DNA of 64,000 nt from the NCBI RefSeq assembly GCF_000832125.1, contig NZ_JPRK01000018.1, forward strand, positions 1 through 64,000. The letters are read 5' to 3'. Below, in pieces: positions 2,665 to 37,587 of the stretch. Within the stretch, counting starts at the first letter, position 1. Each line of letters opens with the position of its first letter. The translations under genes were made by a program, and so were the position numbers. This DNA is from Flavobacterium hibernum. Its GTDB lineage: Bacteria; Bacteroidota; Bacteroidia; Flavobacteriales; Flavobacteriaceae. The notes under the pieces were generated by a model that was given only the letters and a program-made list of their open reading frames with translations, ran no database searches and was not told the DNA's origin.

Positions 2665-3567
2665 ATGAAAAATGTTCTCGTTATTTATTATTCTCAATCC
2701 GGACAACTGGAATCTATTGCGAAAAATATTGCAAAACCATTTCTAAATTCAGAGGATATAAAAGTAACTTTTCACGAAATACAATTAGAGAAACCATTTC
2801 CGTTTCCTTGGAATAAAGCTTCTTTTTTTGATGCCTTTCCAGAATCTTTTTTACAAATTCCAACAAAGTTAAAACCAGTTTCAGAAGAGATTTTAAATAC
2901 AAAATTTGATTTAATTCTTTTTCATTACCAAGTTTGGTTTTTATCACCATCAATTCCAATCAACTCGTTTTTAAAAAGTCCGGAAGCCAAAACAATATTA
3001 AACAATACTCCCGTTATAACTATTAATGGTTCTCGTAATATGTGGGTCATGGCGCAAGAAAAAATTAAAGTTTTATTGCGTGATGCAAATGCAAAATTGG
3101 TTGGAAATGTTGCATTAGTAGATCGCGTTGGAAATTTAATTAGCGTAATCACGATTGTAAATTGGATGTTTTCTGGTGTAAAGAAAAAATATCTCGGCTT
3201 TTTTCCGCTTCCCGGAGTTTCTGATAAAGATATTCAGGAGTCAGATAAATTTGGAGAAATCATACTTTCAGAATTTAAACAAAATAAACTTGGCGATTTA
3301 CAGCCAAAATTAACCGAAATAGGTGCTGTAAAAATCAGTCCATATTTAGTTACAGTAGATAAAACCGCCAATAAAATTTTTAATAAATGGTCAAATCTCA
3401 TTCATAAGAATCAAAAAAACAGGAAAACGCTTCTTAAAATATTTTATGTTTATTTATTCCTTGCGATATGGCTAATCTCACCAATAGTCTATATATTGCA
3501 TCTTATTACCTATCCATTCAAGTTCAAAACCATAAAAAAAGAAACTCAATATTATCAAGGAGTTTAG
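2665..3567 (+). CDS. darA: Dialkylresorcinol condensing/aromatising enzyme DarA
   Basis: The 300-residue protein matches the DarA family found next to DarB in dialkylresorcinol and flexirubin clusters. Its N-terminus (VIYYSQSGQLESIAKNI) is a flavodoxin-like phosphate-binding loop. A mid-region ITINGSRNMWVMAQEK and a hydrophobic C-terminal stretch (about residues 250-280) suggest membrane association. From knowledge of the family, DarB condenses a beta-ketoacyl and an enoyl thioester to a cyclohexanedione and DarA aromatises it to the 2,5-dialkylresorcinol, the alcohol half of flexirubin. It is followed 16 bp later by darB and appears to have its own promoter. Confidence 0.88.
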   Translation: MKNVLVIYYSQSGQLESIAKNIAKPFLNSEDIKVTFHEIQLEKPFPFPWNKASFFDAFPESFLQIPTKLKPVSEEILNTKFDLILFHYQVWFLSPSIPINSFLKSPEAKTILNNTPVITINGSRNMWVMAQEKIKVLLRDANAKLVGNVALVDRVGNLISVITIVNWMFSGVKKKYLGFFPLPGVSDKDIQESDKFGEIILSEFKQNKLGDLQPKLTEIGAVKISPYLVTVDKTANKIFNKWSNLIHKNQKNRKTLLKIFYVYLFLAIWLISPIVYILHLITYPFKFKTIKKETQYYQGV

Positions 3568-3583
3568 CACACGAAATTTAATT

Positions 3584-4717
3584 ATGTTTGACGTATATAT
3601 TACCAAAGCCGCAAAATATTTGCCTAATGAAGCTGTTTCAAATGACGAAATGGAAGATTATTTAGGTCTGATAAATGACACTGCCTCAAAGGCAAGACGT
3701 ATTATTTTGCGTAATAATAAAATTACAAACCGTTATTACGCTGTAGATAAAAACGGAAAAAGCACACATAGTAATGCAGAGTTAACACGCAATGCCGTTG
3801 CACAACTATTTGATGAAAACTTTACAGATCAGGATTTGGAAGTACTTTCATGCGGAACTTCATCGCCTGATGTTTTGGCGCCGTCACATGCTGCAATGGT
3901 TCATGGTTTATTAAAGAACAGATCTGTAGAATTAAATTCTTCAATGGGTATTTGCTGTTCTGGAATGAATGCGCTTAAATATGGTTTTCTTTCGATAAAA
4001 TCAGGAAACTCTAAAAATGCTATTTGTACAGGATCAGAAAAAGTTTCGACATGGCTTTCTTCTCCAAAATACAATCACGAAATTGTTAATTTAAAAAACC
4101 TTGAAGAACAACCTATAATTGCCTTCAAAAAAGATTTTTTACGTTGGATGTTGTCTGATGGAGCCGGAGCATTTTTATTAGAAAATAAACCAAGCGGAGA
4201 AATTTCATTAAAAATTGAATGGATGGAAGCCTATTCTTATGCATTCGAATTAGAAACTTGTATGTATGCTGGTGGAGATAAACTAGAAAACGGAGAAATC
4301 AAAGCCTGGAGCGATTACAAACCAGAGCAATGGTTAAACGAATCTGTATTTGCGGTAAAACAAGATGTAAAAATATTAGACGAATTTATCCTTCCAAAAG
4401 GTGTCGAAAGTATGAGCGATGCAATGGCAAAGCACAATATCACGGCAGATCAGATAGATTACTTTTTACCACACGTTTCCTCTAACTTTTTTGTAGAAGG
4501 ACTAAGAAAAGGACTAATAGAAAAAGGAGTCGATATTGCCGAAGAAAAATGGTTTATGAACCTTTTAAGAGTTGGTAACGTAGGTTCGGCCTCAATTTAT
4601 ATTGCGCTTGAAGAATTAATGTATTCAGGTAAACTAAAAAAAGGAGATCGCATTTTATTATCAGTTCCGGAAAGCGGAAGATTCTCTTTTGCCTACGCCT
4701 ATTTAACCGTTTGCTAA
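3584..4717 (+). CDS. darB: Ketosynthase III-type dialkylresorcinol synthase DarB
   Basis: This is a 377-residue thiolase-fold KAS III relative. The nucleophile region is MGICCSGMNALKYG, and a catalytic-type His lies in YFLPHVSSNF with Asn in RVGNVGSAS, giving a Cys-His-Asn arrangement. It is longer than FabH (about 320 residues), as DarB proteins are. It would join two thioester substrates to form the cyclic precursor that DarA aromatises. Its stop overlaps the next start (TAATG at 4715-4719). Adjacency to darA makes the assignment strong. Confidence 0.92.
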   Translation: MFDVYITKAAKYLPNEAVSNDEMEDYLGLINDTASKARRIILRNNKITNRYYAVDKNGKSTHSNAELTRNAVAQLFDENFTDQDLEVLSCGTSSPDVLAPSHAAMVHGLLKNRSVELNSSMGICCSGMNALKYGFLSIKSGNSKNAICTGSEKVSTWLSSPKYNHEIVNLKNLEEQPIIAFKKDFLRWMLSDGAGAFLLENKPSGEISLKIEWMEAYSYAFELETCMYAGGDKLENGEIKAWSDYKPEQWLNESVFAVKQDVKILDEFILPKGVESMSDAMAKHNITADQIDYFLPHVSSNFFVEGLRKGLIEKGVDIAEEKWFMNLLRVGNVGSASIYIALEELMYSGKLKKGDRILLSVPESGRFSFAYAYLTVC

Positions 4718-5148
4718 TGGAAACAATTTCTCTATTAAATAAAGAAGCCGTCGAAAATTTATTGCCACAAAAGTTTCCTTTTGTAATGGTCGATAAAATG
4801 TATTCTTATACCGAAACCTCATTAGTTTCCGGTTTAAAAATTCAGAGCGACAATATCTTTGTTGAGAATAATTCTTTTCTGGAAGCAGGTATAATCGAGC
4901 ATATGGCACAATCTGTGGCATTGCATACCGGATATGAGTTTTTTTTGAAAAACGAAACCGCACCAACAGGTTATATTGGCTCTATAAAAGATATTGAAAT
5001 AAAAAAATGCCCAAAAGTCGACGATACAATTCAATCAGCCGTGACTATTCTGCAAGAATTTGCCGGAATAACTTTGGTTGATATTGTGACTACTTTAAAT
5101 AATGAAGAAATTGCCCGCGGACAAATGAAAACCGTTTTGGCAAAATAA
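4717..5148 (+). CDS. FabZ-like hotdog dehydratase, ApeP-like, lacking the catalytic His
   Basis: The 143-residue hotdog protein begins like FabZ (LLPQKFPFVMVDKM). In the active-site helix it keeps the acidic residue (GIIEHMAQS, where FabZ has LEAMAQ). The FabZ signature HFPGxPxxPG is replaced by FVENNSFLEAG, so the catalytic His is absent. This matches the ApeP-type dehydratases of aryl-polyene clusters. It may need a His-bearing partner, such as the product at 17760. I chose the ATG at 4717, which overlaps the darB stop, over the in-frame TTG at 4711. A second similar gene follows 7 bp later. Confidence 0.85.
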   Translation: METISLLNKEAVENLLPQKFPFVMVDKMYSYTETSLVSGLKIQSDNIFVENNSFLEAGIIEHMAQSVALHTGYEFFLKNETAPTGYIGSIKDIEIKKCPKVDDTIQSAVTILQEFAGITLVDIVTTLNNEEIARGQMKTVLAK

Positions 5149-5155
5149 TATACCT

Positions 5156-5620
5156 ATGAAGATTGGAGTTGAAATACAAAATTATCTACCGCACCGGGCG
5201 CCAATGCTTATGGTAGATTTAATTTTGGATATAAATTCAAGTTTTGTAGAAACGACATTTCTGATAAAAGAAGACAACATTTTTGTTGATAATAACATTT
5301 TTGTCGAAGCCGGATTAATCGAAAATACAGCACAAACCTGTTCTGCAATTGTAGGCAAAAAGTATTTTTTTGAAGAAGACGGAACAGAAAATGAAAACGT
5401 AAATGTAATTGGTTTTATCAGTGCTTTAAAAAATCTGAAAATACATTCGCTACCAAAAACTGGTAATACCATTATTACCAAAGCAAATCTGGTTTCGAAA
5501 TTTATTGGCGACGATTATACTTTATGCACAATGAGTTGCGAAAGTTTATTTGAAGACAAACTACTTTTAGAATGCGAAATTAATTTGTTTATTCAAAAGA
5601 CAGTTTCGACAACAACATAA
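5156..5620 (+). CDS. Second FabZ-like hotdog dehydratase paralogue, also His-less
   Basis: This 154-residue hotdog protein is a paralogue of its upstream neighbour. It has LPHRAPMLMVDLI at the N-terminus and FVEAGLIENTAQTC in the position of the FabZ active-site helix. The acidic residue is kept and the HFPG histidine is missing. A role in dehydrating 3-hydroxyacyl-ACP, or in binding as a structural half of a mixed dimer, fits its place in the cluster. The tandem pair suggests duplication followed by specialisation, perhaps one for the polyene and one for the resorcinol chains; that split is inference. Confidence 0.82.
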   Translation: MKIGVEIQNYLPHRAPMLMVDLILDINSSFVETTFLIKEDNIFVDNNIFVEAGLIENTAQTCSAIVGKKYFFEEDGTENENVNVIGFISALKNLKIHSLPKTGNTIITKANLVSKFIGDDYTLCTMSCESLFEDKLLLECEINLFIQKTVSTTT

Positions 5621-5645
5621 TTCTGATCGAAAATAAAAAACCGTC

Positions 5646-6050
5646 ATGGAAAAAGAAAATGTACCTCAGCACGATGGAAATTTAAGCAAAAAGAACCTCA
5701 AAGAACTTGTTTATGCTACAGATGAAAATGGCAATTATACAACCGCTTTAAGCACGGGTTGGGAACCAAAAGCAATTGCACTTTCTAACGCAATTGATGA
5801 TATAAAAGAACGTGCGGAAGAAGCCAAAATAAAAGTTCAGACTGGCGAATTAAGTCCAATTTGTTATTATATGGAACTCAATAAAATGGATCTTACCATT
5901 CTTGCAGGTTATGTAGAAATGTGGAAATGGCGTGTAAAAAGACATTTTAAACCAACTGTTTTTGCCAAATTAAGCGATAAAACTTTACAGAAATATGCCG
6001 ACGCTTTTGAGATTTCAATAGCTGATTTAAAAAACTTTAAAACAGATTAA
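5646..6050 (+). CDS. Conserved flexirubin-cluster protein of unknown function
   Basis: I recognise no domain with a known function in this 134-residue soluble protein. It has no signal peptide or membrane segment. It is rich in charged helices (about residues 40-70 and 105-130) and contains a Trp-rich stretch, YVEMWKWRVKRHF, near residue 90. Its stop overlaps the BtrH-like start (TAATG at 6050), so the two are probably translated together and may act together. Position suggests an accessory role in pigment assembly. Confidence 0.75.
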   Translation: MEKENVPQHDGNLSKKNLKELVYATDENGNYTTALSTGWEPKAIALSNAIDDIKERAEEAKIKVQTGELSPICYYMELNKMDLTILAGYVEMWKWRVKRHFKPTVFAKLSDKTLQKYADAFEISIADLKNFKTD

Positions 6051-7048
6051 TGCAAGTTACTTTTACACATCATCAATCTGCTCATTGTGAAAATGGAGTA
6101 GCTTCAAACCTCTTAAAAAATAGCGGACTCAATATCAGCGAACCTATGGTTTTTGGAATTGGTTCGGGACTTTTTTTTGTGTACCTACCTTTTTTAAAAG
6201 TAAATCATGCGCCAGCAATTAGTTACAGAACTTTGCCTGGACAAATTTTTAATAAAGTTGCCAACCGTTTAAATTTAAAAATAAAAAGACAAAAATTTTC
6301 ATCAACAGTTAATGCCAATAAAGCATTAGATGAAAATCTAAAAAATAATATCCCAACCGGATTACAAGTTGGCGTTTATCATTTAAGTTATTTTCCTGAT
6401 GAATACCGTTTCCATTTTAACGCACACAATTTAGTCGTTTACGGAAAAACCGAAACCGATTATTTAATTAGCGATCCCGTAATGGAAACCGTTACCACTT
6501 TGACACACGAAGAATTAGACAAAGTGCGTTTTGCCAAAGGTGCATTTGCTCCAAGAGGACAAATGTATTATCCAATTCAGATTCCAAAAGATGTTGATTT
6601 AAAAAGTGCCATTATTAAAGGAATCAAAAATACGTGTCGCGATATGTTGGCACCAATGCCAATTGTTGGTGTTCGCGGAATTAAAATGGTTTCTCGACAA
6701 ATTAGAAAATGGCCATTGAAACACGGTGTTAGAAAAGCCAATCATTACCTTGCCCAAATGGTTCGTATGCAGGAAGAAATAGGAACTGGTGGCGGAGGTT
6801 TTCGTTTTATATATGCCGCATTTTTACAAGAAGCTTCGGTTATTTTAAACAATGAAGAATTAAAAGTGCTCTCGAAAGAAATGACTCAAATTGGAGATTC
6901 CTGGAGAGATTTTGCTGTAGAAGCTTCCAGAATTTACAAAAACAGAAGCGCCAAAGAAGATGCTTACAATGCCATTGCCGATGAACTTTTGAGTATTGCC
7001 AACAGAGAAGAAATCTTTTTCAAAAAACTAAAAAAAGCAATTAGCTAA
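6050..7048 (+). CDS. BtrH N-terminal domain protein (acyltransferase/peptidase-like fold)
   Basis: The 332-residue protein starts with THHQSAHCENGVASNLL, the hallmark of the BtrH_N family, named after the butirosin enzyme that moves an acyl group from ACP to an amine. Cys near residue 13 and the histidines around it are the likely active-site elements of a C39-like fold. The second half is helical and matches the accompanying C-terminal domain of unknown function. In this cluster it could transfer an ACP-bound acyl group to an acceptor; that is extrapolated from BtrH. It overlaps the upstream gene by one base and precedes an ABC exporter. Confidence 0.78.
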   Translation: MQVTFTHHQSAHCENGVASNLLKNSGLNISEPMVFGIGSGLFFVYLPFLKVNHAPAISYRTLPGQIFNKVANRLNLKIKRQKFSSTVNANKALDENLKNNIPTGLQVGVYHLSYFPDEYRFHFNAHNLVVYGKTETDYLISDPVMETVTTLTHEELDKVRFAKGAFAPRGQMYYPIQIPKDVDLKSAIIKGIKNTCRDMLAPMPIVGVRGIKMVSRQIRKWPLKHGVRKANHYLAQMVRMQEEIGTGGGGFRFIYAAFLQEASVILNNEELKVLSKEMTQIGDSWRDFAVEASRIYKNRSAKEDAYNAIADELLSIANREEIFFKKLKKAIS

Positions 7049-7057
7049 ATATATATT

Positions 7058-7810
7058 TTGCAATCCATTATAAAAATAGAATCCCTTTCGAAAAAGTACA
7101 AAGATGCAGAAATGTATTCTTTGAACAGTGTTTCGTTGGATATTAACCAAGGTCAGATTTTTGGATTATTGGGCCCAAATGGTGCCGGAAAAACTACTTT
7201 AATTTCCTTGCTTTGCGGATTGATAAAACCAACTTCCGGGCACTTTAGTATTGACGACCTAAACTATTCCAATCATGCTTCAAAAATTAAAAAAATTATT
7301 GGAGTTGTTCCGCAAGAATATGCTTTGTATCCAACATTAACGGCGAGAGAAAATTTGCATTATTTTGGAAGTATGTACGGCTTAAAAGGCAATCATTTAA
7401 AAGATAAGGTAATCGAAACTTTAGATCTTTTGGGTTTATTAAAATTTGCCGACAAACGTATCGACACCTTTTCCGGAGGTATGAAGCGCCGAGTAAATTT
7501 AATCGCCGGAATTTTGCACAACCCAAAAGTTTTGTTTTTAGATGAGCCAACCGTTGGCGTTGATGTTCATTCTAAAAATGCCATTATAAATTATTTGAAA
7601 GTTTTAAACCAAAACGGAACTACCATTATATACACCTCACATCATTTGGCCGAAGCCGAAGATTTCTGTACCAATATTGCCATTTTAGACCAAGGTCAAA
7701 TTTATGCCAAAGGAACTCCAAAGGCTTTAATTGATGCTACTGAAAATGCAAGAAATCTAGAAGACGTTTTTATTTCATTAACCGGTAAAGAGTTGCGAGA
7801 TGATGTATAA
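7058..7810 (+). CDS. ABC transporter ATP-binding protein
   Basis: This is a 250-residue ABC-2-type ATPase. It has Walker A GPNGAGKTT (about residues 40-48), a Q-loop VVPQEYALYP, the signature FSGGMKRR, Walker B VLFLDEPTVG, and the switch His in TSHHLAE. The start is TTG at 7058; the first ATG is 18 codons later and would remove the first beta strand, so TTG is preferred. It overlaps the permease gene downstream and pairs with it. Within the pigment cluster the exporter may move a pigment or envelope lipid across the inner membrane; the substrate is not evident. Confidence 0.92.
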   Translation: MQSIIKIESLSKKYKDAEMYSLNSVSLDINQGQIFGLLGPNGAGKTTLISLLCGLIKPTSGHFSIDDLNYSNHASKIKKIIGVVPQEYALYPTLTARENLHYFGSMYGLKGNHLKDKVIETLDLLGLLKFADKRIDTFSGGMKRRVNLIAGILHNPKVLFLDEPTVGVDVHSKNAIINYLKVLNQNGTTIIYTSHHLAEAEDFCTNIAILDQGQIYAKGTPKALIDATENARNLEDVFISLTGKELRDDV

Positions 7811-9089
7811 AATTTGGATGTCGGTCGTAAAAGAATTCTTGTTGCTCAAACGAGATTTAGGAGGTTTGATCATTTTGTTTATCATGCCTTTGGTTTTGGT
7901 TATTACAGTAACCTTAATTCAGGACAGTGCTTTTAAAACGATTAGCGATAATAAAATTCCCATTTTATTAGTAGATAACGACAACGGTTCAGTCTCAAAA
8001 TCCGTTTTTGAGAACTTAGAAAAAAGCAATTTGTTTAGTGTTATCACACAAATCGACAACAAACCAATTACCGAAGAAGTTGCCAAAGAAGCCGTTTACA
8101 AAGGAAAATATCAATTGGCTATTATAATTCCGCAAAATCTAAGTATTGATTTACAAACCAAAATTGATCAGAATGTCGAGAACATTGTGAGCAAAATGGG
8201 TTTAACAGAAACCGATACTTCCGCGCAAGCTGAAAAACCAAAAGTAATCAAAGAAAAAGAAGTGAAATTGTATTTTGATCCAGCGGTTCAAATGAGTTTC
8301 AAAAATGCGGTTATGAGTTCTATTGATAAAATGATTTCACAAATCGAAACCAAATCAATTTACGCCACTTTTCAAAATCAATTAGGAGAAGGAAATATTC
8401 AATTCGAACAAAAAAGCTTCATTACATTCAAAGAAATAATTCCAAGGATAAACAACAAAGAAGTATTGCCAAATTCAGTACAGCATAACGTTCCTGCGTG
8501 GACACTTTTTGCTATATTTTTTATTGTAATTCCCTTGTCTATAAATATCGTAAAAGAAAAATCCCAAGGAACATTTGTTCGATTATTAACCAATCCGGTT
8601 TCAAATCTAATTGTCATCATCGGAAAAACAATCACGTATTCAATCATTTGTATGATTCAGTTTTATATGATGGTTGCCGTTGCTATTTTCTTGTTTCCGC
8701 ATATTGGTTTGCCTCCACTAAATATCGAAGGACATTTATTTTTAATGAGTATTGTCGCCTTATTTTCAGGTTTTGCCGCCATAGGTTTCGGAATTCTATT
8801 AGGAACTGTCGCAAGTACACAAGAACAATCGGCTCCGTTTGGTGCAACAAGTGTACTTATTTTAGCTGCCGTTGGAGGAGTTTGGGTTCCTGTTTTTGCA
8901 ATGCCAAAAATCATGCAGATTATCGCTAAATCATCGCCTATGAATTGGGGTTTAGAAGCGTTTTATGATGTTTTATTGCGCAACGTTTCTTTCCTTGAAA
9001 TCATTCCAAAAATAAGTTTGCTATTTTTGTTCTTTATAATCACAACATCCATCGCCTTATTTTATGACAAAAAGAAAAGAACAGTATAA
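7800..9089 (+). CDS. ABC-2 type transporter permease
   Basis: The 429-residue membrane protein has the ABC-2/YhgE layout. One TM is near residues 20-40, followed by a large extracytoplasmic domain (about 45-220) and then five to six TM segments to the end, with motifs such as KEKSQGTFVRLL before TM2. It starts inside the last codons of the ATPase gene (11-bp overlap), so the pair forms one exporter. An ATG three bases later is an equally possible start. Its 3' end overlaps the thioesterase gene by 26 bp. Confidence 0.9.
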   Translation: MMYKIWMSVVKEFLLLKRDLGGLIILFIMPLVLVITVTLIQDSAFKTISDNKIPILLVDNDNGSVSKSVFENLEKSNLFSVITQIDNKPITEEVAKEAVYKGKYQLAIIIPQNLSIDLQTKIDQNVENIVSKMGLTETDTSAQAEKPKVIKEKEVKLYFDPAVQMSFKNAVMSSIDKMISQIETKSIYATFQNQLGEGNIQFEQKSFITFKEIIPRINNKEVLPNSVQHNVPAWTLFAIFFIVIPLSINIVKEKSQGTFVRLLTNPVSNLIVIIGKTITYSIICMIQFYMMVAVAIFLFPHIGLPPLNIEGHLFLMSIVALFSGFAAIGFGILLGTVASTQEQSAPFGATSVLILAAVGGVWVPVFAMPKIMQIIAKSSPMNWGLEAFYDVLLRNVSFLEIIPKISLLFLFFIITTSIALFYDKKKRTV

Positions 9090-9513
9090 CGAAGCCACAG
9101 ACTTAACCGTTTCGCACGAAATCAGAATTCGTTTTAACGAAACTGACCCACTCGGAATCGTTTGGCACGGCCATTATATTACCTATTTTGAAGATGGACG
9201 CGAAGCCTTTGGACGCCAACACGCACTCACCTATTTGGATATTGCCAAAACGGGTTTTACAACACCAATTGTAAAATCAAAATGCGAACACAAATTGTCT
9301 TTGCGTTACGGAGATGTTGTAACGATAGAAACAACAGTTGTCGATACGCCTGCTGCCAAAATAATTTATCGTTTTAAAATTTTAGACGCTCAAGGCGAAA
9401 TTGCCTGCACTGGCGAAACCGTTCAGGTATTTTTAGATAAAGAAGGAAACTTAATGCTGACGAATCCTCCTTTTTATGAGGAATGGAAACGAAAAGTTGG
9501 GTTGTTAATGTAA
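9064..9513 (+). CDS. Acyl-CoA/acyl-ACP thioesterase, 4HBT hotdog family
   Basis: The 149-residue protein belongs to the 4-hydroxybenzoyl-CoA thioesterase group. The catalytic-type Asp lies in FNETDPLGIVWHGHYITYFEDGREAF, a stretch typical of YbgC-like enzymes. It could release a finished acyl or aryl-polyene chain from ACP or edit stalled chains; both are inferred. It begins 26 bp inside the permease gene, the close packing seen across the operon. The following gene starts 5 bp after its stop. Confidence 0.88.
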   Translation: MTKRKEQYNEATDLTVSHEIRIRFNETDPLGIVWHGHYITYFEDGREAFGRQHALTYLDIAKTGFTTPIVKSKCEHKLSLRYGDVVTIETTVVDTPAAKIIYRFKILDAQGEIACTGETVQVFLDKEGNLMLTNPPFYEEWKRKVGLLM

Positions 9514-9518
9514 AAGAA

Positions 9519-10034
9519 ATGAATCAATTTAAAACTAGATACAATTACTTAATTCTTGTAGCAAGATTTATCTTCACAATCTTTTTTGGAGCATTATCTA
9601 TTATAATGATTTATGTATTAATTAAAGATTCTAAATCAAACAATTACTTATCTGAATTTTTCTTTGGAATAGTATTCAACATCATTATGATATACCTTAC
9701 TTATCATTTTGCCATTCTTATTATTAAACAATCATATAATTTCAAAATAGAAGAAAATAGTATATTTAAAATTTCAATTTTATCTGGTAGAAAAGAATTA
9801 CTAAAAACGAATCAAATTAAAGGTTTTAGTATTTCAGAGTACCCAATAAAAATTTGGAATTTTAAATCGATAATATTGTATTTGGCGAACGGTAAAAAAA
9901 TAGAACTGCCCCAATTCTTATATTTTAATTTCAATAAAATTGAAAATGAGCTTATTGAAAACTCAATCACAAAATTGGGTCACGAAAAACACAAATGGAA
10001 ATCCTTTGATTCTCGATATTATGAGTATGAATAA
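9519..10034 (+). CDS. Two-TM membrane protein with PH-like C-terminal region, unknown function
   Basis: I start this 171-residue protein at the ATG 5 bp after the thioesterase stop rather than at 9483, because the upstream codons lie inside the thioesterase gene. TM segments are at about residues 10-35 and 48-72. The rest is a soluble domain (KIEENSIFKISILSGRKE onward) resembling the bacterial PH-like domains that follow paired TMs in small Bacteroidota proteins. Nothing suggests a pigment enzyme. It is more AT-rich than its neighbours, and like the gene at 11242 it may be a late insertion into the cluster. Confidence 0.6.
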   Translation: MNQFKTRYNYLILVARFIFTIFFGALSIIMIYVLIKDSKSNNYLSEFFFGIVFNIIMIYLTYHFAILIIKQSYNFKIEENSIFKISILSGRKELLKTNQIKGFSISEYPIKIWNFKSIILYLANGKKIELPQFLYFNFNKIENELIENSITKLGHEKHKWKSFDSRYYEYE

Positions 10035-10061
10035 TAATCTTGACAATCAACGTAATATAAA

Positions 10062-11210
10062 ATGACAAAAGAAATATATATCACACAAACGAATTGTATC
10101 ACGCCTTTAGGTTTTGATGTTGAATCGAACATCGAAGCGATTTTGCGTGGTGAATCTGGAATTCAATTGCATTCCGCTCTTTCTTTAATGCCAATGCCGT
10201 TTTATGCTGCGATTATTAATGATGAAAAAATAAACAGTGCTTTTGAAAAAATCAGCACAGAAAAAAAATATTCCCGTTTAGAGAAAATGATGATCTTGGC
10301 TTTAGAGCCAATTATCAAAAATTCAGGAGTTGAATTAAATTCGAAAACTGCTTTTATACTTTCGACTACAAAAGGAAATGTTACGGCTTTAAAAAATAAT
10401 TCTGAAGAAAGTTTCAATAACGCACATTTAGATGTTTTAGCAAAAAATGTTTCGGATTTCTTCGGATTTAAAACACAACCAATTGTAGTTTCAAATGCTT
10501 GCGTTTCCGGAATTTTAGCAGTTTCTGTTGCCAAAAGAATGATTCAGTCTGAATTGTACGATACTATTTTTGTGGTTGCCGGCGATGAAATTTCAGAATT
10601 TGTTTTGTCTGGATTTAATGCTTTTCAGGCAATGAGTGATTTGCCTTGTAAACCGTATTCTAAAAATAGAACCGGAGTAAGTTTAGGCGAAGCAACCGCA
10701 GCCGTTTTACTTTCGGCGGAAGCCAAAAATGCCAAAATAAAAGTAATTGGCGACAGTTCGATAAACGATGCCAATCATATTTCGGGACCTTCAAGAACAG
10801 GCGAAGGTTTGTTTAGAAGTATTCAGAATGCTTTGAAAGAAGCTCAAATTAATTCCGACAAAATCCATTATATTTCCGCACACGGAACCGCAACTCCGTT
10901 CAACGACGAAATGGAAGCTATTGCTTTAAATCGTTTAAATTTACAAAACGCTCCAATAAATAGTTTAAAAGGATTTTACGGTCATACATTAGGCGCTTCT
11001 GGATTGTTGGAAACGGTAATCGCGATAGAATCTGCAAATCAAAATATACTTTTTGAATCGAAAGGTTTTGATGAAATTGGAGTTAGTGAAGCTATCAATG
11101 TTATTGAGAAAAATCTAGAAAAGAAGATTGAGTATTTCCTGAAGACGGCTTCCGGATTTGGAGGTTGTAATACGGCGGTTGTTTTTGAAAAGATAAAATC
11201 CAACTTGTAA
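10062..11210 (+). CDS. Beta-ketoacyl-ACP synthase, full catalytic triad
   Basis: This is a 382-residue KAS I/II-family protein. The nucleophile is Cys147 in SNACVSGIL; His274 in SAHGTATP and His308 in FYGHTLGAS complete the triad. The C-terminal TASGFGGCNTAVV is typical. It is divergent from the other KAS proteins here and slightly short, suggesting a specialised step such as priming or a chain-length-limited extension. A SUKH-like gene and a KAS-fragment gene follow, so it may originally have been adjacent to the fragment gene. Confidence 0.9.
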   Translation: MTKEIYITQTNCITPLGFDVESNIEAILRGESGIQLHSALSLMPMPFYAAIINDEKINSAFEKISTEKKYSRLEKMMILALEPIIKNSGVELNSKTAFILSTTKGNVTALKNNSEESFNNAHLDVLAKNVSDFFGFKTQPIVVSNACVSGILAVSVAKRMIQSELYDTIFVVAGDEISEFVLSGFNAFQAMSDLPCKPYSKNRTGVSLGEATAAVLLSAEAKNAKIKVIGDSSINDANHISGPSRTGEGLFRSIQNALKEAQINSDKIHYISAHGTATPFNDEMEAIALNRLNLQNAPINSLKGFYGHTLGASGLLETVIAIESANQNILFESKGFDEIGVSEAINVIEKNLEKKIEYFLKTASGFGGCNTAVVFEKIKSNL

Positions 11211-11241
11211 ATTTTCTTTATAAGTTCAAAATTTAAATATC

Positions 11242-11724
11242 ATGAATATAGACGAATCCCTTTTTAAAAAAGCTTTAAAAATTCACGGTTTTGATTTCAA
11301 AAATGATGTAGTAAAAGTAACTGATAAAATTATTGAATTTCTTGAAAGCTTAAATCTATCTAAAGATTTAATAACTTTTTTAAAAGCATTTTCCTTTAAA
11401 GAAGAGATAAATTTTGGAAGCATTTATTTTAATTGTGTAAATAGAATTAGAATAGAAAATCTTGAAAAGGAGAACAAAGAAATCTATAAAAAAGATTTAC
11501 TTATAATTGGTTCAGGTGCAAATGGTGATCCAATTGTTGTAAATACTAAAACACTGAATGTGGGATATATTTTTCATGACATTCTTTGGGAAGAAGAAAA
11601 TATTGAAGATTTGAATAAAGTTTACATTGATCTAAAAATGAGTATTGGAACTTTCTTTTATAAATCGATAACAGAAGAAGATTTTCCTATTGATGCTTAT
11701 CAAGCAGAAGATTATATAAAATAA
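11242..11724 (+). CDS. SMI1/KNR4 (SUKH)-like protein, probable insertion in the cluster
   Basis: The 160-residue soluble acidic protein has the ending expected of the SUKH superfamily: a strand IIGSGANGDPIVVNTKT, then VGYIFHDILWEEEN and a C-terminal helix. SUKH proteins often act as immunity proteins against polymorphic toxins, but also occur as orphan genes. No toxin gene is adjacent. The base composition is more AT-rich than the enzymes beside it, and it is unrelated to pigment chemistry. The family call rests on pattern recognition only; immunity is an inference. Confidence 0.55.
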   Translation: MNIDESLFKKALKIHGFDFKNDVVKVTDKIIEFLESLNLSKDLITFLKAFSFKEEINFGSIYFNCVNRIRIENLEKENKEIYKKDLLIIGSGANGDPIVVNTKTLNVGYIFHDILWEEENIEDLNKVYIDLKMSIGTFFYKSITEEDFPIDAYQAEDYIK

Positions 11725-11725
11725 A

Positions 11726-12343
11726 ATGACTCAAAATAAAACCTACATACAATCCTACATCACCATCCAAAACAACGAAATTGTTTTGAACGGAACTTCT
11801 GTATTCAAAATTGAACCAACAGATTTTGGGGATTTCTCGAAACAAGCGTATCGTAATTTTGATATTCAATACCCGAAGTTTTTCAAAATGGATGCTTTGA
11901 GCAAATTGGCTTTTTTAGGATCTGAATTGCTTTTGAGTCCGATAACTTCGGCTGAACAAGAAAACAATATTGCGTTGGTTTTGGCCAATAAATCGTCAAG
12001 TTTAGATACTGATGTTAAGTATCAGGAATCTATTTCAGACAAAGAAAATTATTATCCGAGTCCTGCGGTTTTTGTTTATACTTTACCAAATATTTGTTTG
12101 GGCGAAATAAGTATTCGTCATCAGCTTAAAAGTGAAAATTCTTTCTTTATATTTGATGCTTTCAATTCGGAGTTTCTGTTGAACTATTCCGAGGTTTTGT
12201 TAAACACAAATAAGGCAGATTCAGTTCTGTGCGGTTGGGTAGAATTTTTTAAGGATGATTACAAAGCATTTCTTTGTGTCATTAGTGCAGAAGAAAACAC
12301 AAAATATACAAACGAAAATATCAATACATTATATAATCAATAA
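11726..12343 (+). CDS. Short ketosynthase-like protein lacking an active-site Cys
   Basis: The 205-residue protein resembles the N-terminal half of a ketosynthase. It opens like the cluster's other KAS proteins (YIQSYITIQNNEI) and contains SKLAFLGSELLL and later VLCGWVEFF, which correspond to KAS strands and helices. It stops at half the normal length and has no Cys nucleophile or catalytic histidines. It starts one base after the SUKH-like stop and ends 2 bp before the second ACP gene. A structural, gating or dimer-partner role with a full KAS is plausible; a decayed ketosynthase is the alternative. The intact reading frame argues for function. Confidence 0.65.
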   Translation: MTQNKTYIQSYITIQNNEIVLNGTSVFKIEPTDFGDFSKQAYRNFDIQYPKFFKMDALSKLAFLGSELLLSPITSAEQENNIALVLANKSSSLDTDVKYQESISDKENYYPSPAVFVYTLPNICLGEISIRHQLKSENSFFIFDAFNSEFLLNYSEVLLNTNKADSVLCGWVEFFKDDYKAFLCVISAEENTKYTNENINTLYNQ

Positions 12344-12345
12344 TC

Positions 12346-12603
12346 ATGGAAGCATTAAAAGAAGAATTAAAAAATAAAATCATTACGACTTTAAACCTTG
12401 AAGATATCGCAATCGAAGACATTGCTGATAACGATCCTTTGTTTGGAGATGGTTTAGGTTTAGACTCAATTGATGCGCTTGAATTAATTGTAATTTTAGA
12501 TAAAGATTACGGAATTAAATTGGTTGACCCAAAAGAAGGTAAAACCATTTTTCAATCGATCGAAACTATGGCGGCGTACATTAGCGCTAACAGAACTAAA
12601 TAG
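12346..12603 (+). CDS. Acyl carrier protein (second)
   Basis: The 85-residue ACP has the attachment motif GLGLDSIDALELI (Ser near residue 41) and an acidic profile. It differs clearly from the ACP at 1319 (DSID-A-LE against DSLDYVDL). It precedes a KS and a Cys-less KS partner, the arrangement seen around the minimal polyketide synthase of aryl-polyene clusters, so it may be the carrier for polyene extension. An AAGTCTAA-type repeat array lies immediately downstream. Confidence 0.95.
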   Translation: MEALKEELKNKIITTLNLEDIAIEDIADNDPLFGDGLGLDSIDALELIVILDKDYGIKLVDPKEGKTIFQSIETMAAYISANRTK

Positions 12604-12608
12604 ACATC

Positions 12609-12736
12609 TTAGACTGACTTAGATTTTTAGACAACTTAGACAATACTTTAAAAAAAATCTAAGAAGTCTAATGTCTAAAAATCTAAGCAAGTCTAATAAA
12701 GAAATCTAAGCAAGTCTAAAAATCTAAGAAGTCTAA
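12609..12736 (+). repeat. Short interspersed repeat array, AATCTAAG(C)AAGTCTAA units
   Basis: Four direct units of 16-17 bases lie at 12656-12671, 12680-12696, 12703-12719 and 12721-12736, each reading AATCTAAGAAGTCTAA or AATCTAAGCAAGTCTAA. Inverted, less perfect copies stand at about 12609-12625 and 12629-12641. The array fills the gap between the ACP and ketosynthase genes and ends one base before the KAS ATG. The inverted halves would pair with the direct units in RNA, giving a hairpin next to the start codon. No leader or cas genes are present. Confidence 0.8.
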
Positions 12737-12737
12737 A

Positions 12738-13934
12738 ATGAAAGGTGTTGCAATAACCGGAATGGGAATTATCTCTTCGATTGGAAATTCAGTCGAGGAA
12801 AATTATACGTCGTTAATCGAAAATAAAATTGGTATTTCTCGTATCACAAATATTCCAACTGTTCATGCCGATGTTATTAAGGTAGGTGAAATTAAAAAAA
12901 CCAACGACGAATTGGTTGACGAATTGAAACTTAGCCAAGATAATAACTTTTCGAGAACGGCGATGATTGGCACAATTGCAGCCAAGCAAGCTGTTGAAAA
13001 TGCAGGAATTACATCGATAAACGAATTTAGAACCGGACTTATTTCGGCTACAAGCGTAGGCGGAATGGACATGACTGAAAAGCATTATTACGATTATTTC
13101 GAACACCCTGAACTTGTCAAATATATTGCTTGCCATGACGGAGGAGATGTTGCTGAGAAAATTGCCGAGGAATTAGGTTTAAAAGGAATTGTTACTACTA
13201 TAAGTACCGCTTGTTCCTCTGCCGCAAACGCAATTATGCTGGGCGCGCGACTAATTAAAACCGGAAAACTAGATCGTGTAATTGTTGGCGGAGCCGATGG
13301 TTTGGCTAAATTCACGATTAACGGATTTAAAACTTTGATGATTTTATCAGACGATTTCAATAAACCTTTTGACAATGAACGAAAAGGATTGAACCTTGGT
13401 GAAGCAGCAGCATATTTGGTTTTAGAATCGGATGAAATTGTTGCCAAACAGAATAAAAAAGTGCTGGCAAGAGTTTCCGGTTACGGAAATGCAAACGACG
13501 CTTTTCATCAAACTGCTTCTTCAGAAAATGGCGATGGCGCTTATTTAGCGATGAAAAAAGCCTTTGAAGTTTCGGGCTTAAAACCTTCGCAAATTGATTA
13601 CATCAACGTGCACGGAACAGCAACTCCAAACAACGATTTATCTGAAGGAAGAGCTTTGTTGAGAATTTATCAAGACATAAAAGTTCCGGATTTTAGTTCT
13701 ACCAAACCTTTTACAGGACATACTTTAGCAGCAGCGGCAGCAATCGAAGCCGTTTACAGTGTTTTGGCAATTCAGAATAATGTGGTTTATCCAAATTTGA
13801 ATTTCGAAAACCCTATGGAAGAATTTGATTTACAGCCAGAAACTTCTTTGAAAAACAAAACTATCGAACACGTTTTATCCAACTCTTTTGGTTTTGGAGG
13901 AAATTGTTCAACCCTTATATTCTCAAAAAGCTAA
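12738..13934 (+). CDS. Beta-ketoacyl-ACP synthase II-type, probable catalytic KS of a KS/CLF pair
   Basis: The 398-residue ketosynthase has Cys159 in STACSSAANA, His292 in NVHGTATP and His328 in FTGHTLAAAA, with NSFGFGGNCSTL at the C-terminus. The triad is complete. The next gene, almost contiguous, encodes a Cys-less homologue, so this looks like the KS subunit of a KS-chain-length-factor heterodimer like the aryl-polyene ApeO/ApeC type. It would extend the aryl-primed polyene with malonyl-ACP. Confidence 0.93.
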   Translation: MKGVAITGMGIISSIGNSVEENYTSLIENKIGISRITNIPTVHADVIKVGEIKKTNDELVDELKLSQDNNFSRTAMIGTIAAKQAVENAGITSINEFRTGLISATSVGGMDMTEKHYYDYFEHPELVKYIACHDGGDVAEKIAEELGLKGIVTTISTACSSAANAIMLGARLIKTGKLDRVIVGGADGLAKFTINGFKTLMILSDDFNKPFDNERKGLNLGEAAAYLVLESDEIVAKQNKKVLARVSGYGNANDAFHQTASSENGDGAYLAMKKAFEVSGLKPSQIDYINVHGTATPNNDLSEGRALLRIYQDIKVPDFSSTKPFTGHTLAAAAAIEAVYSVLAIQNNVVYPNLNFENPMEEFDLQPETSLKNKTIEHVLSNSFGFGGNCSTLIFSKS

Positions 13935-13935
13935 C

Positions 13936-14997
13936 ATGAAAAAAACATATATAAATGGAGTAGGTTGTATTTCGACTCAAAAAACATTTGATACCGTTTT
14001 TTTAGAAGAAGCAATTGAGCACAAAAATGAAACCGTACTTTCGATAGTATCACCGATTTACAAAGATTATATTTCGCCTGCTGCCAGCAGAAGAATGGCA
14101 AAAGGAGTAAAAAACGGAATTGTAGCTTCGGCTTTAGCCTTAAAAGATGCACATCTGGAAAATATTGATGCCATTATTACGGGAACTGGTTTGGGATGCA
14201 TTGAAGATTCTGAAAAATTCCTGAAAAACATTCTCGATAATAACGAAGAGTTTTTAACTCCAACAGCATTTATTCAATCAACGCATAATACAGTTGGCGC
14301 TCAAATCGCTTTAACATTACAATGCAAGGGTTATAATTTTACTTATGTAAATGGAGCTGTTTCTTTTGAATCGGCACTTTTAGATGCCAAAATGCAAATC
14401 GAAGAAAACGAAGCCAATTCGATTTTAGTTGGCGGAATCGACGAAACCGGAGATTATACCATTTCTCTTTTTAAACTCGCAGGACGTGTTAAGGACGAAA
14501 ATAATTTACCCAACGACATTTTAAACTCAACATCCACTGGCGCTATTTATGGCGAAGGTGCCGCTTTTTTTGTTTTAGAAAACGAGAAAAAAGAAAATAC
14601 CTATGCTCAGATTTTAGATGTTGAAATCATAAATACTTTACAAGAAAACGAAGTTGAAGCCAAAATAACTGCATTTCTAAAAGCTAATAATCTAGAGATT
14701 TCAGATCTTGATGCTGTGGTTTTAGGTTTTAACGGAAATATTGATTCTGATATTTATTATAAAAATATTGCCGAAAATGCTTTTGCAAAAATACCTCAAT
14801 TGTATTATAAACATTTAAGTGGCGAATACGATACGGCTTCGGCTTTTGCATTATGGATGGCTTCTAAAGTGATCAAAACTCAGGAAATCCCTGAAATTGT
14901 AAAAGTTAATTCAGTCGAAAAACCGATTTATAGTAACATTTTATTATACAATCAATTGAATGGAAAAAATCATAGTTTTACTTTGATCTCAAAATGA
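13936..14997 (+). CDS. Ketosynthase chain-length-factor-like protein (active-site Cys replaced)
   Basis: I start this 353-residue protein at the ATG 2 bp after the KS stop; the in-frame ATG at 13888 lies within the KS gene. It keeps the thiolase fold (TYINGVGCIS, IITGTGLGCIEDS, FIQSTHNTVGAQIAL). At the nucleophile position the sequence is VNGAVSFESAL, so Cys is replaced by Ala, and the HGT motif is also lost (VLGFNGN). Such proteins act as non-condensing partners that set chain length. Its TGA stop overlaps the deacetylase start. Confidence 0.85.
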   Translation: MKKTYINGVGCISTQKTFDTVFLEEAIEHKNETVLSIVSPIYKDYISPAASRRMAKGVKNGIVASALALKDAHLENIDAIITGTGLGCIEDSEKFLKNILDNNEEFLTPTAFIQSTHNTVGAQIALTLQCKGYNFTYVNGAVSFESALLDAKMQIEENEANSILVGGIDETGDYTISLFKLAGRVKDENNLPNDILNSTSTGAIYGEGAAFFVLENEKKENTYAQILDVEIINTLQENEVEAKITAFLKANNLEISDLDAVVLGFNGNIDSDIYYKNIAENAFAKIPQLYYKHLSGEYDTASAFALWMASKVIKTQEIPEIVKVNSVEKPIYSNILLYNQLNGKNHSFTLISK

Positions 14998-15779
14998 TAA
15001 CGCACAAAAACATATCACTTTTTTTCATTTTAGTCTTGCTCTTATTATTTCTTTCGAATTTTTATATAGCAATAAATATTTGGTGGTTTGTTTTAATAAT
15101 TTTCATTTGGTTCAATTTTAATGCAATTGGTTCTTCGATAATTTCATCCAATTATCATATAAAAGTTTACTGCAATAATCCATCGGAAAAAGAAAAAAAA
15201 ATCGCACTTACTTTTGATGACGGACCAAGTGAATTTACTTTGGAGGTTCTAGAATTGCTGAAAAAACACAACGCAAAAGCCACTTTTTTCTGCATCGGAA
15301 AAAATATTGAAAAGCATCCTGAAATTCTTCAAAGAATTATAGACGAAGGCCATTTAGTTGGAAATCATTCGTATTCTCATTCTAATTTTTTTGATTTTTA
15401 TAATGCATCAACTATAATCGAGGAACTTCAAAAAACAGATGCACTTCTGGAAAAGTTCACTTCTAAAAAAATAAATTTCTTTCGTCCGCCTTATGGTGTA
15501 ACGACGCCATCGATCAGGAGAGCTTTAAAAGTAACCAACCATAAAGTTATTGGCTGGAATATTCGTTCGCTTGACGGTGGAACAAAAAATCAGGATTTGA
15601 TTTTGAACCGAATTAAAAAACGTGTTTCTCCAGGCGGAATTGTACTTTTGCACGACACTGCTCCGCACTCTGTTTTGGTACTGGAACAGTTTTTGCAATT
15701 TTTAGAGCACAGTAATTACGAAGTGATTTCGATTGAAGAACTTTTGAATCTTAAAGCTTATGAAATTGAACGCGGATAA
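14994..15779 (+). CDS. Polysaccharide deacetylase-family protein (NodB domain)
   Basis: The 261-residue protein has two N-terminal TM segments (about residues 7-26 and 28-50) and a NodB/CE4 domain. The domain carries motif 1 LTFDDGPSE, motif 2 GNHSYSH (metal-binding histidines), motif 3 FFRPPYG, and a later VLLHD motif. It is anchored in the inner membrane and would hydrolyse N- or O-acyl groups from a carbohydrate or related substrate. Its link to flexirubin is unclear, but it is co-transcribed (ATGA overlap). The catalytic residues appear intact. Confidence 0.88.
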   Translation: MITHKNISLFFILVLLLLFLSNFYIAINIWWFVLIIFIWFNFNAIGSSIISSNYHIKVYCNNPSEKEKKIALTFDDGPSEFTLEVLELLKKHNAKATFFCIGKNIEKHPEILQRIIDEGHLVGNHSYSHSNFFDFYNASTIIEELQKTDALLEKFTSKKINFFRPPYGVTTPSIRRALKVTNHKVIGWNIRSLDGGTKNQDLILNRIKKRVSPGGIVLLHDTAPHSVLVLEQFLQFLEHSNYEVISIEELLNLKAYEIERG

Positions 15780-15883
15780 AACGGATTCGCTAAAGCGAAA
15801 ACGCAGATTTAAACGGATTTTTCTAATCATTTTAATCGGTGAAATCTGTGGCAAGAAATTTAAAGCATAATTTCTAAAAAAAT
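15780..15883 (+). repeat. Small intergenic repeat-type sequence
   Basis: The gap contains a short perfect inverted repeat (TTCGCTAAAGCGAA near 15786) and the phrases CGCAGATTTAAACGGATTT and GAAATCTGTGGC. The latter recurs as AAATCTGTGGC in the element at 19831-19956. It looks like a degraded copy of a non-coding repeat family. It contains no gene and no clear promoter; the LolA-like start is at its end. Confidence 0.45.
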
Positions 15884-16510
15884 ATGAAAACTAAAATAGC
15901 ACTATTAATTCTATTTATTTCAGGCAATTTATTTGCTCAGGAACAGAAAATGTCTGATGCAGAAATTGCTTCTTTTAAACAAGATGTAAATCTTGTATCA
16001 AAAAAAATCAAAACTTTGAGTACTGATTTTATTCAATACAAACACTTGGATTTTTTATCGAAAGACATTGAAACTTCTGGTAAAATGATTTTTAAAGAAC
16101 CTAGTTTACTGCAATGGCAATATAAAAAACCATACAATTATACTATTGTTTTTAAAAACGGAAAAATCCTGATTAACGACGAAGGAAAGAAAAGTGCGGT
16201 TGATATTGGCAACAGTAAAATTTTTGGCCGTATCAATAAATTAATCGTGGGAAGCGTAAGCGGAAATATGTTTGACGACAAAGAATTTACGATTTCGTAT
16301 TTTAAATTGAAAGGACAAAATCTAGCAAAGTTTATTCCGAAAGACGCAACGCTAAAAAAATACATCAAACAAATCGAACTTACTTTTGATAAAGAAGAAT
16401 CAACTGTGGTTCAAGTAAAACTGCTGGAATCATCTGAGGATTATACTCGAATTGTACTTAAAAATAAAGTAATCAATGCAAAAATCGACGATTCAGTTTT
16501 TACTAATTAA
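15884..16510 (+). CDS. LolA-like outer-membrane lipoprotein carrier family protein
   Basis: The 208-residue protein has a cleavable signal peptide (MKTKIALLILFISGNLFAQ) followed by a LolA-like beta-sandwich (DFIQYKHLDFLSKDIETSG, EPSLLQWQYKKPYNYTIV). LolA-family carriers shuttle hydrophobic molecules through the periplasm. Homologues are regular members of aryl-polyene clusters, where they are thought to carry the pigment or its lipid to the outer membrane. It may work with the MMPL exporter at 19973. Whether it carries a lipoprotein or a pigment ester is inferred from context. Confidence 0.85.
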   Translation: MKTKIALLILFISGNLFAQEQKMSDAEIASFKQDVNLVSKKIKTLSTDFIQYKHLDFLSKDIETSGKMIFKEPSLLQWQYKKPYNYTIVFKNGKILINDEGKKSAVDIGNSKIFGRINKLIVGSVSGNMFDDKEFTISYFKLKGQNLAKFIPKDATLKKYIKQIELTFDKEESTVVQVKLLESSEDYTRIVLKNKVINAKIDDSVFTN

Positions 16511-17111
16511 TTGCTTACTGGCGATTGTTTTGGTTTCTTGTGGCTCTGTTACAAAAAACTACATTCCTAAAAAATTAGACAAAACGGCTATAGAAGTTCC
16601 GTATTTTTCAGATTCAAAAACAGATTATGTTTATAAAACTAATATCACGGTTTATGGAAATGAGTTGTCGGGAATTTTTATTGCAAAAAAAATAAATGAC
16701 ACTTTACACCGAATTGTTTTCACTACTGAATTTGGCAATAAATTAATGGATTTTGAAATTTCTGATAAGAGTTTCAAAGTTAATTCGATTGTATCAGAAT
16801 TAGATCGAAAAATCCTGATTAATACTTTAAAACAAGATTTTCGTTTACTTCTTAAAAAAGAATATCTAATCGAGGAACAGTTTGAAAATGAATCCAATAA
16901 CATCTATAAATCTAAAGATGGAAAGCGAGATAACTACCTTTTTATCTCTAAAAAAGAAGGCAAATTAGAAAAAGTCGTTCATTGCTCTAAAACAAAAGAA
17001 AAATTTACAATAAAATTTAGTTCAAAAAACAATATTTTTGCCGAGAATATTCAGATTATTCATCAAAACATTAAGTTAAAAATTGAGCTTAACCATTTTA
17101 AATCAGAGTAA
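16476..17111 (+). CDS. Cluster lipoprotein of unknown function
   Basis: The 211-residue protein has a lipoprotein signal (FLLINCLLAIVLVSCGS) with lipobox LVSC near residue 22. The mature part is a basic, beta-rich domain (DKTAIEVPYFSDSKTDYVYK onward). The start overlaps the LolA-like gene by 35 bp; a later start would lose the lipobox, so this one is kept. By analogy with LolA-LolB pairs it could be an outer-membrane acceptor, but I see no definite LolB signature. Confidence 0.75.
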   Translation: MQKSTIQFLLINCLLAIVLVSCGSVTKNYIPKKLDKTAIEVPYFSDSKTDYVYKTNITVYGNELSGIFIAKKINDTLHRIVFTTEFGNKLMDFEISDKSFKVNSIVSELDRKILINTLKQDFRLLLKKEYLIEEQFENESNNIYKSKDGKRDNYLFISKKEGKLEKVVHCSKTKEKFTIKFSSKNNIFAENIQIIHQNIKLKIELNHFKSE

Positions 17112-17147
17112 AATTTAAACTAAACCTAAACTTAAAGCAACCAAAGA

Positions 17148-17753
17148 ATGAGAAAAATAACCGTAATTGCCTTTTTTTTATTTGCAAGTATAATGAGTGC
17201 TCAGGTAACCTTTAAACCGGGTTTAAGAGCCGGAGCTTCGTTCTCTAATTTCTCAAATATACGTTCTGATTATAAAACAGATTTTTATGTAGGTGGTTTT
17301 GGCGAAATCAAATTAACTAAGTTTTACACTTTACAACCCGAAATCACATATAGTCAACAGGGTGCTGATAATGTTAAAACTATTATTCGTTATAATAATG
17401 GTCAGGATGTTATCGAATCCAGAAATTTAGAAATTGACTATCTTTCGTTAGCTATGATTAATAAGTTTACTTTTAATGGTGGTTTTCAGCTTCAGGTAGG
17501 TCCAACTTTAGACTTTAGAGTACAGGACAATTTACTTTATCAAAAATCTGACGTCGATTTGGCCTTTATAATGGGTATTGCTTATAAATTGAAATCTGGA
17601 TTAACATTTGAAGCTCGATTTAAAAAAGGGCTAGTTGATGTTTTAGATAGCGATATTTATGAAAGCAGCAGAGACAATGATGAATTTTGGTTGGCTGATT
17701 ATAATACAAATATTAGTTTTCAATTAGGTATTTCATATCCTTTTGGTAAATAA
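17148..17753 (+). CDS. Outer membrane beta-barrel protein (PorT/OmpX-like family)
   Basis: The 201-residue protein has a signal peptide (about residues 1-18, ending ASIMSAQ). It continues with strands typical of small Bacteroidota outer-membrane barrels: FKPGLRAGASFSNF, FYVGGFGEIKLTKFYTLQPEITYSQQG, and a C-terminal ISFQLGISYPF ending close to an aromatic residue. It would span the outer membrane with about eight strands. Its presence in the cluster fits flexirubin being an outer-membrane pigment, but a direct role is not shown. Confidence 0.82.
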   Translation: MRKITVIAFFLFASIMSAQVTFKPGLRAGASFSNFSNIRSDYKTDFYVGGFGEIKLTKFYTLQPEITYSQQGADNVKTIIRYNNGQDVIESRNLEIDYLSLAMINKFTFNGGFQLQVGPTLDFRVQDNLLYQKSDVDLAFIMGIAYKLKSGLTFEARFKKGLVDVLDSDIYESSRDNDEFWLADYNTNISFQLGISYPFGK

Positions 17754-17759
17754 AAAATT

Positions 17760-18131
17760 ATGGTTTTAAAAGATTTTTACAACGTTCTTTCAGAAGAAAA
17801 AACAGGAGATTCTAAATATAGTATAACGATTTTGATCAACGAAAAACATGAAGTTTTTAAAGGTCATTTTCCAGGAAATCCAATTATGCCAGGAGTTTGC
17901 ATGATTCAGATTATTAAAGAACTTACAGCAGCGATTACTAAAAGTACTTTGATTATTCAGACATTATCAAATGTAAAATTCATGGCACTTATTAATCCTG
18001 AGGTAACTCCGGAACTACGTTTAGAACTTGAGATTACGACAACCGAAGAAGATTTGGTTAAAGTAAAAAATACGACTTATTTTAACGACACTGTTGCGCT
18101 GAAACTAAGCAATGTGTACAAAAAAATATAA
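17760..18131 (+). CDS. ApeI-like hotdog dehydratase with His but without the acidic residue
   Basis: The 123-residue protein has the FabA/FabZ signature GHFPGNPIMPGV with the catalytic His near residue 40. The acidic residue expected four positions after PGV is Gln (PGVCMIQIIKE against FabZ PGVLxxEAMAQ). This is the mirror image of the hotdog proteins at 4717 and 5156. The family resembles ApeI-type thioester dehydratases. It starts 7 bp after the barrel gene stop and is probably a cytoplasmic dehydratase for the growing polyene. Confidence 0.85.
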   Translation: MVLKDFYNVLSEEKTGDSKYSITILINEKHEVFKGHFPGNPIMPGVCMIQIIKELTAAITKSTLIIQTLSNVKFMALINPEVTPELRLELEITTTEEDLVKVKNTTYFNDTVALKLSNVYKKI

Positions 18132-37570: not shown

Positions 37571-37587
37571 CTCTAAAAATCTATAAA

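Follow-up and report, generated by a model that had tools for sequence, protein, structure and literature searches.

A candidate split hotdog dehydratase with one His-bearing and two Glu-bearing subunits in the flexirubin gene cluster of Flavobacterium hibernum

Three hotdog proteins with complementary active-site residues

The window analysed here, a stretch of 64,000 nucleotides of the Flavobacterium hibernum genome (assembly GCF_000832125.1), is the start of the 90.6-kb contig NZ_JPRK01000018.1 and carries a flexirubin-type gene cluster with three genes for small hotdog proteins, all on the + strand. P1 (4717..5148, 143 residues) and P2 (5156..5620, 154 residues) are putative acid-only subunits, P1 being ApeP/FabZ-like, and I (17760..18131, 123 residues) is a putative His-only subunit that resembles ApeI and FabZ. 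The start codon of P1 shares one base with the stop codon of the gene for the dialkylresorcinol ketosynthase DarB, and P2 is 27% identical to P1. In FabA and FabZ, the active sites take their histidine from one chain and their acid from the other. Alignment of the three proteins to the genome's own FabZ domain, which lies in a 468-residue frame (probably LpxC-FabZ, a name inferred from the frame length), places Glu61 of P1 and Glu56 of P2 at the FabZ acid column and reveals a five-residue deletion in both at the HFPG site, the histidine of which is missing. Subunit I retains that histidine (His36) within the motif GHFPGNPIMPG and has a glutamine, Gln50, at the acid column. The alignment thus confirms what the first-pass annotation had read from these three products, namely that two of them keep the FabZ glutamate without the HFPG histidine and that the third keeps HFPG with glutamine in place of the acid. 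A chain bearing both the HFPG histidine and the glutamate, as in a FabZ homodimer, was found in none of P1, P2 and I; the source genome also encodes the intact FabZ domain, with both residues present.

Family models say little about the two P proteins: at E 1, P1 has no Pfam match and P2 a single one, weak and unrelated, and the NCBIfam match of both to FabZ lies far under its cut-off. Two further genes of this type were seen elsewhere in the source genome (G000). An orphan acid-only paralogue of 137 residues (G000:C2:207078-207437; L270:6549-6962, minus strand) is FabA/FabZ-like (PF07977, 26.5 bits), keeps the glutamate and has serine at the His column; it adjoins a thioredoxin reductase-like gene, and no polyketide genes are evident in the 13.5-kb stretch around it that was covered. 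The neighbors of the other gene (G000:C23:28708-28998; L271:4182-4619), which encodes a FabZ-like protein with both histidine and glutamate, include a gene resembling type III polyketide synthases (Pfam chalcone/stilbene synthase) as well as ketosynthase-like and acyl carrier protein-like genes.

Joint conservation of the subunits

The distribution of P and I was surveyed in 100 genomes of the family and 198 genomes of the phylum, three of which (G000, G001 and G032) belong to both samples. Custom alignments replaced the Pfam ApeI-like model, which in a survey of the phylum had matched 48 of 148 genomes, one of them above the cut-off and most of them FabZ judging from frame length. FabZ-like matches were set aside before genomes were counted; the rows dropped were open frames of about 410-610 residues, other weak FabZ-like matches, P1 genes picked up by the P2 query, and a fragment of I in one genome. 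In the family sample, P is present in 29 of the 100 genomes and a full-length I in 28 of these, the twenty-ninth (G015) having only that fragment, 42 residues long. The counts for the phylum sample rest on strong matches among the matches listed, and on that basis strong P and strong I matches occur in the identical 13 genomes. A strong I match without P was found in neither sample, again among the matches listed. Combining the samples, P occurs in 40 different genomes, the source genome included, and a full-length I in 39 of them.

The residue pattern is equally uniform. The glutamate is present in 70 of the 70 P proteins from these 40 genomes, none of which retains HFPG; all 39 I proteins have the histidine and none has an acid at the acid column, which is occupied by Gln in 37, Met in one and His in one. 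Among named stretches, of which the best 80 of 114 confirmed were used, all from close Flavobacterium relatives, the glutamate is present in 80/80 P1 and 80/80 P2 proteins. Three P proteins are irregular at the missing histidine: one in a genome with a single P gene (G039) has "GHF" 8 residues before the glutamate, not 14, and in those of G042 and G027 a histidine aligns in the shortened loop. The pattern in P and I exceeds chance.

Two simpler accounts of the residues were considered but discarded. The histidine that follows the glutamate in the P1 motif IIEHMAQ is not tenable as a catalytic residue, as 17 of the 40 P1-type proteins have Asn at this position and 23 have His. Nor is subunit I a FabZ with a sequencing error, the acid being absent from all 39 relatives. 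One genome, G023 (L116, L117), has a split cluster: I is found at 2.10 Mb of a contig that carries P1, P2 and the DarA homologue at 0.68 Mb.

The flexirubin cluster and the association of P2 with dialkylresorcinol genes

Sequence assigns the locus to the flexirubin clusters: DarB (3584..4717, NCBIfam NF053539, 672 bits against a cut-off of 550), DarG (5646..6050, NF053545, 202 bits, cut-off 170) and the BtrH-related acyltransferase DarH (6050..7048, NF053550, 522 bits, cut-off 300) all score above their cut-offs. Every gene of the cluster that is listed here with its window coordinates lies on the + strand. The protein encoded at 2665..3567 has no family match and is probably DarA, from its position before DarB and its distribution; a plasmid search with it returned three Streptomyces records, in which the proteins are annotated as hypothetical. 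An ATP-binding cassette (ABC) transporter ATPase and an ABC-2 permease (7058..9089; 7058-7810 and 7800-9089) belong to the block that accompanies P2, followed by a hotdog thioesterase (9064..9513; 4HBT_2, TIGR00051).

The gene content around this block is that of an aryl-polyene-type cluster. To the left lie a ketosynthase (91..1326), an acyl carrier protein (PP-binding; 1319..1573) and a lipid A-type acyltransferase (1573..2454, PF03279); to the right are a ketosynthase (10062..11210), a second PP-binding acyl carrier protein (12346..12603), a ketosynthase with a partial ketosynthase-like protein (12738..14997; 12738-13934 and 13888-14997), a LolA-like carrier (15884..16510) and, beyond subunit I, a family 2 glycosyltransferase with a DUF2062 domain (18638..19819) that is homologous to the neighbor of ApeI in Escherichia coli CFT073. 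A polysaccharide deacetylase gene is also found in the surroundings. The known flexirubin loci of Chitinophaga pinensis and Flavobacterium johnsoniae agree with this one in having an aromatic ammonia-lyase, DarA/DarB, ketosynthases, LolA and an exporter (PMC3992019). Genes for an aromatic amino acid lyase (Pfam Lyase_aromatic) and a short-chain reductase precede the cluster in F. johnsoniae CI04; the F. hibernum cluster is probably truncated by the contig end, because the homologue of that lyase (95%) lies on another contig of the source genome (C20:2210-3727). Operon limits were not firmly indicated by scans for promoters (82, against 75.9 in shuffles, standard deviation 7.8) or terminators (18, against 11.5, standard deviation 3.5). 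Elsewhere in the window, a pair encoding a TonB-dependent receptor and a SusD-family lipoprotein (34580-39168) is followed by an unrelated gene on the opposite strand.

Two P genes accompany a single I gene in 30 of the 40 genomes, and the second P gene follows the dialkylresorcinol genes. Searched genome-wide, a DarA homologue is present in 29 of the 30 genomes with P2, as against 2 of the 10 with a single P; in the only P2 genome that lacks one (G037), the P genes are on a 5.4-kb contig. For the 29 cluster genomes of the family sample the table reads 21/1/0/7 (Fisher p 5e-6, kinship ignored), and all seven single-P genomes of that sample are without P2 and without a DarA homologue. Cluster stretches were retrieved for 18 of the 40 genomes: homologues of DarA, DarB and DarG stand beside P1 and P2 in 11/11 double-P genomes and within the stretch of 0/7 single-P genomes. 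Ketosynthases and other polyene genes occur in six of these seven single-P stretches, the seventh (G031) displaying only P, I and the glycosyltransferase. In the named loci, which come from close relatives, the order DarA-DarB-P1-P2-DarG-DarH-ABC-permease-thioesterase is found in 80/80. The P2 proteins form one group in the tree; a branch sets them apart in all 200 bootstrap trees (100%), and their support of 92/71 is below the 95/80 mark of the tool. Single-P proteins fall among or beside P1, where resolution is poor. The tree leaves the split between P1 and P2 unrooted, owing to the great length of the branch to E. coli ApeP and to a bootstrap that had yet to converge.

A putative ApeI:P-like enzyme, its alternatives and known systems

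A precedent for an active site divided in this way is provided by aryl polyene biosynthesis. PMC8041823 states, from sequence comparison, that ApeI and ApeP form heterodimeric dehydratases, which have one active site only and replace homodimeric FabZ, and PDB entry 6QSR bears the title "The Dehydratase Heterocomplex ApeI:P from Xenorhabdus doucetiae". The gene table for E. coli CFT073 in PMC8253772 separates ApeI from ApeP and calls both seemingly duplicated functions. Subunit I matches chain 6qsr_A at E 0.0019, the I profile matches it at 3.2e-7, and the P profile matches 6qsr_B at 5.4e-8. The predicted model of P1 (mean predicted local distance difference test score, pLDDT, 89.2) superposes on 6qsr_B with a template modeling (TM) score of 0.84, a root-mean-square deviation of 2.0 and a Z of 19.2, joint top; its query TM is the highest among the 50 matches listed, in which it ranks 14th by E-value. 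FabZ chains fit the P1 model about equally, and the fold gives no means of telling ApeP and FabZ apart. That a hotdog dehydratase can be split is already known in principle from ApeI:ApeP, and the central idea of the first-pass annotation is right in kind. What differs here is that the His subunit has lost the acid and that one I appears to serve two P subunits. In the part of the literature on flexirubin, ApeI/ApeP and heterodimeric dehydratases that was searched, mostly freely readable papers, no description of a His-only subunit with two acid-only subunits was found. For the Chitinophaga pinensis cluster, "a dehydratase (FlxF, FlxS)" is named for this step in the text consulted, with no mention of a split site (PMC3992019).

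We propose that P1, P2 and I are subunits of a split 3-hydroxyacyl-acyl carrier protein (ACP) dehydratase of the flexirubin cluster that would work as ApeI:ApeP does. One active site would form at the I:P interface, with the histidine from I and the glutamate from P, and the mirror site would contain neither histidine nor acid; homodimers of I or P would miss one residue each, so that the heterodimer alone could work. Judged by residue content, the catalytic division is complete in Bacteroidota and I cannot supply the acid, because none of the 39 I proteins has one. I:P1 would dehydrate the growing aryl-polyene chain, as the lone P would in single-P clusters, and P2 would be an alternative acid subunit on the common I. 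In Flavobacteriales, I:P2 would make the α,β-unsaturated acyl-ACP that DarB condenses in the dialkylresorcinol branch. Ketosynthases of the DarB class join a β-ketoacyl thioester to an α,β-unsaturated thioester (PMC4578411 and PMC5515871). Unsaturated thioesters of this type are the product of a dehydratase, and the location of P2 in the dar block would be accounted for if I:P2 were the dedicated source for DarB.

As a whole, an ApeI:P-like split dehydratase in which I:P1 serves the polyene and I:P2 the dialkylresorcinol is the best explanation and a reasonably probable one. Its parts differ in strength. That I:P1 works like ApeI:P is likely, given the residues and the 6QSR precedent; that I:P2 is active is slightly favored; that I:P2 feeds DarB is a tentative suggestion. 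We are similarly guarded about the fullest version, a combinatorial enzyme in which a common His subunit forms I:P1 for the polyene acid and I:P2 for the enoyl-ACP of DarB, the split possibly having been derived from FabZ independently of ApeI:ApeP. The first-pass annotation had held that a His-bearing and an acid-bearing protein make one competent site per heterodimer, and that two acid-bearing paralogues would give two different enzymes. The former agrees with the residue pattern (39/39 I, 70/70 P), the co-occurrence and 6QSR, the pairing itself being predicted; the latter receives indirect support from the ratio of two P genes to a single I and from P2 tracking the dialkylresorcinol genes.

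Other arrangements could be built from the same genes. P1 might be the sole dehydratase partner and P2 a catalytically inactive paralogue with a scaffolding, regulatory or stabilizing role in the complex. Clusters with a single P manage with that one protein, which the tree places on the side of P1, yet an inert subunit would not need its glutamate, and P2 has kept it in 30/30 proteins of the genome samples and 80/80 of the named loci; we regard this account as unlikely, though less so than the next. Instead, both P subunits might have the polyene chain as their substrate, perhaps in early and late rounds, in the manner of HadAB and HadBC. P2 adjoins P1, and HadB does partner either HadA or HadC, HadBC favoring longer substrates and each pair contacting its own condensing enzyme (PMC3245277); against this, P2 tracks the resorcinol genes rather than the polyene genes, and the seven family-sample single-P genomes without P2 or a DarA homologue have polyene genes in six of their seven stretches, which renders a second polyene subunit rather improbable. 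Finally, the housekeeping FabZ, intact in the source genome with His and Glu, could carry out the dehydration and leave I and P as thioester-binding proteins or pseudo-enzymes; retention of the complementary residues in all relatives examined and the ApeI:P precedent make this highly improbable.

Returning to the split I:P dehydratase, several observations weigh against it. DarB could be supplied by the housekeeping FabZ, and the Azoarcus dar gene table in PMC3949708 has no dehydratase among its entries. Together with two genomes from outside the order, G116 and G198, which have a DarA homologue but one P, this table implies that P2 is dispensable in some such pathways. The sampled genomes are kin and not independent. 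The model of I alone, with a pLDDT of 33.6, was unusable and left unused. Subunit I scores 20.3 bits with the Pfam ApeI-like model, whose cut-off is 28.5, and its profile scores ApeI (E 7.3e-9) and FabZ (3.1e-8) about equally; the P profile scores the source FabZ (E 1e-13) ahead of E. coli ApeP (2.6e-11), and its search of the PDB was led by FabZ chains. P1 alone had no match to 6qsr and P2 one at E 0.13 only, neither P1 nor P2 of the window had a phmmer match to E. coli ApeP, and a comparison of the I profile with the P profile gave hardly any alignment (E 0.029). Because sequence does not set ApeI:P apart, FabZ could have given rise to the split independently of ApeI:ApeP. The gene neighborhood favors common descent with the Ape pair, I adjoining the family 2 glycosyltransferase gene both here and in E. 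coli CFT073. Our claim is that the enzyme works like ApeI:P, and descent from the Ape pair is not claimed.

If true, this proposal would describe a natural enzyme with its catalytic residues fully divided over two genes and recombined in two ways, and would name candidate dehydratases for both halves of flexirubin. Both halves would depend on a common catalytic subunit, which could account for the balance between them, and the three proteins would offer a small testable system in a tractable bacterium.

Among known systems, FabZ and FabA are like the proposed enzyme in the predicted P1 fold and in the positions of the histidine and the acid; they differ in carrying both residues on each chain, which is true of none of P1, P2 and I. 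The mycobacterial HadAB and HadBC dehydratases have one common subunit with two alternative partners, and one active site in HadAB; they indicate that different condensing enzymes can be served through one common subunit and its two partners (PMC3245277). Both catalytic residues of HadAB are on the common subunit, HadB, whereas here they are split between chains with another motif, I having the histidine and glutamine for the acid. ApeI:ApeP, which is known from X. doucetiae, E. coli CFT073 and A. baumannii, is also made of two hotdog proteins, E. coli ApeP having the glutamate without the HFPG histidine and ApeI the histidine, and in that cluster ketosynthases, an ACP, LolA and a thioesterase likewise accompany the pair, with a glycosyltransferase next to ApeI. 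The differences lie on both sides of the pair: E. coli ApeI, 6qsr_A and the similar uncharacterized 3esi_A all have Asp (3/3) where I has Gln, and the flexirubin cluster has two P subunits.

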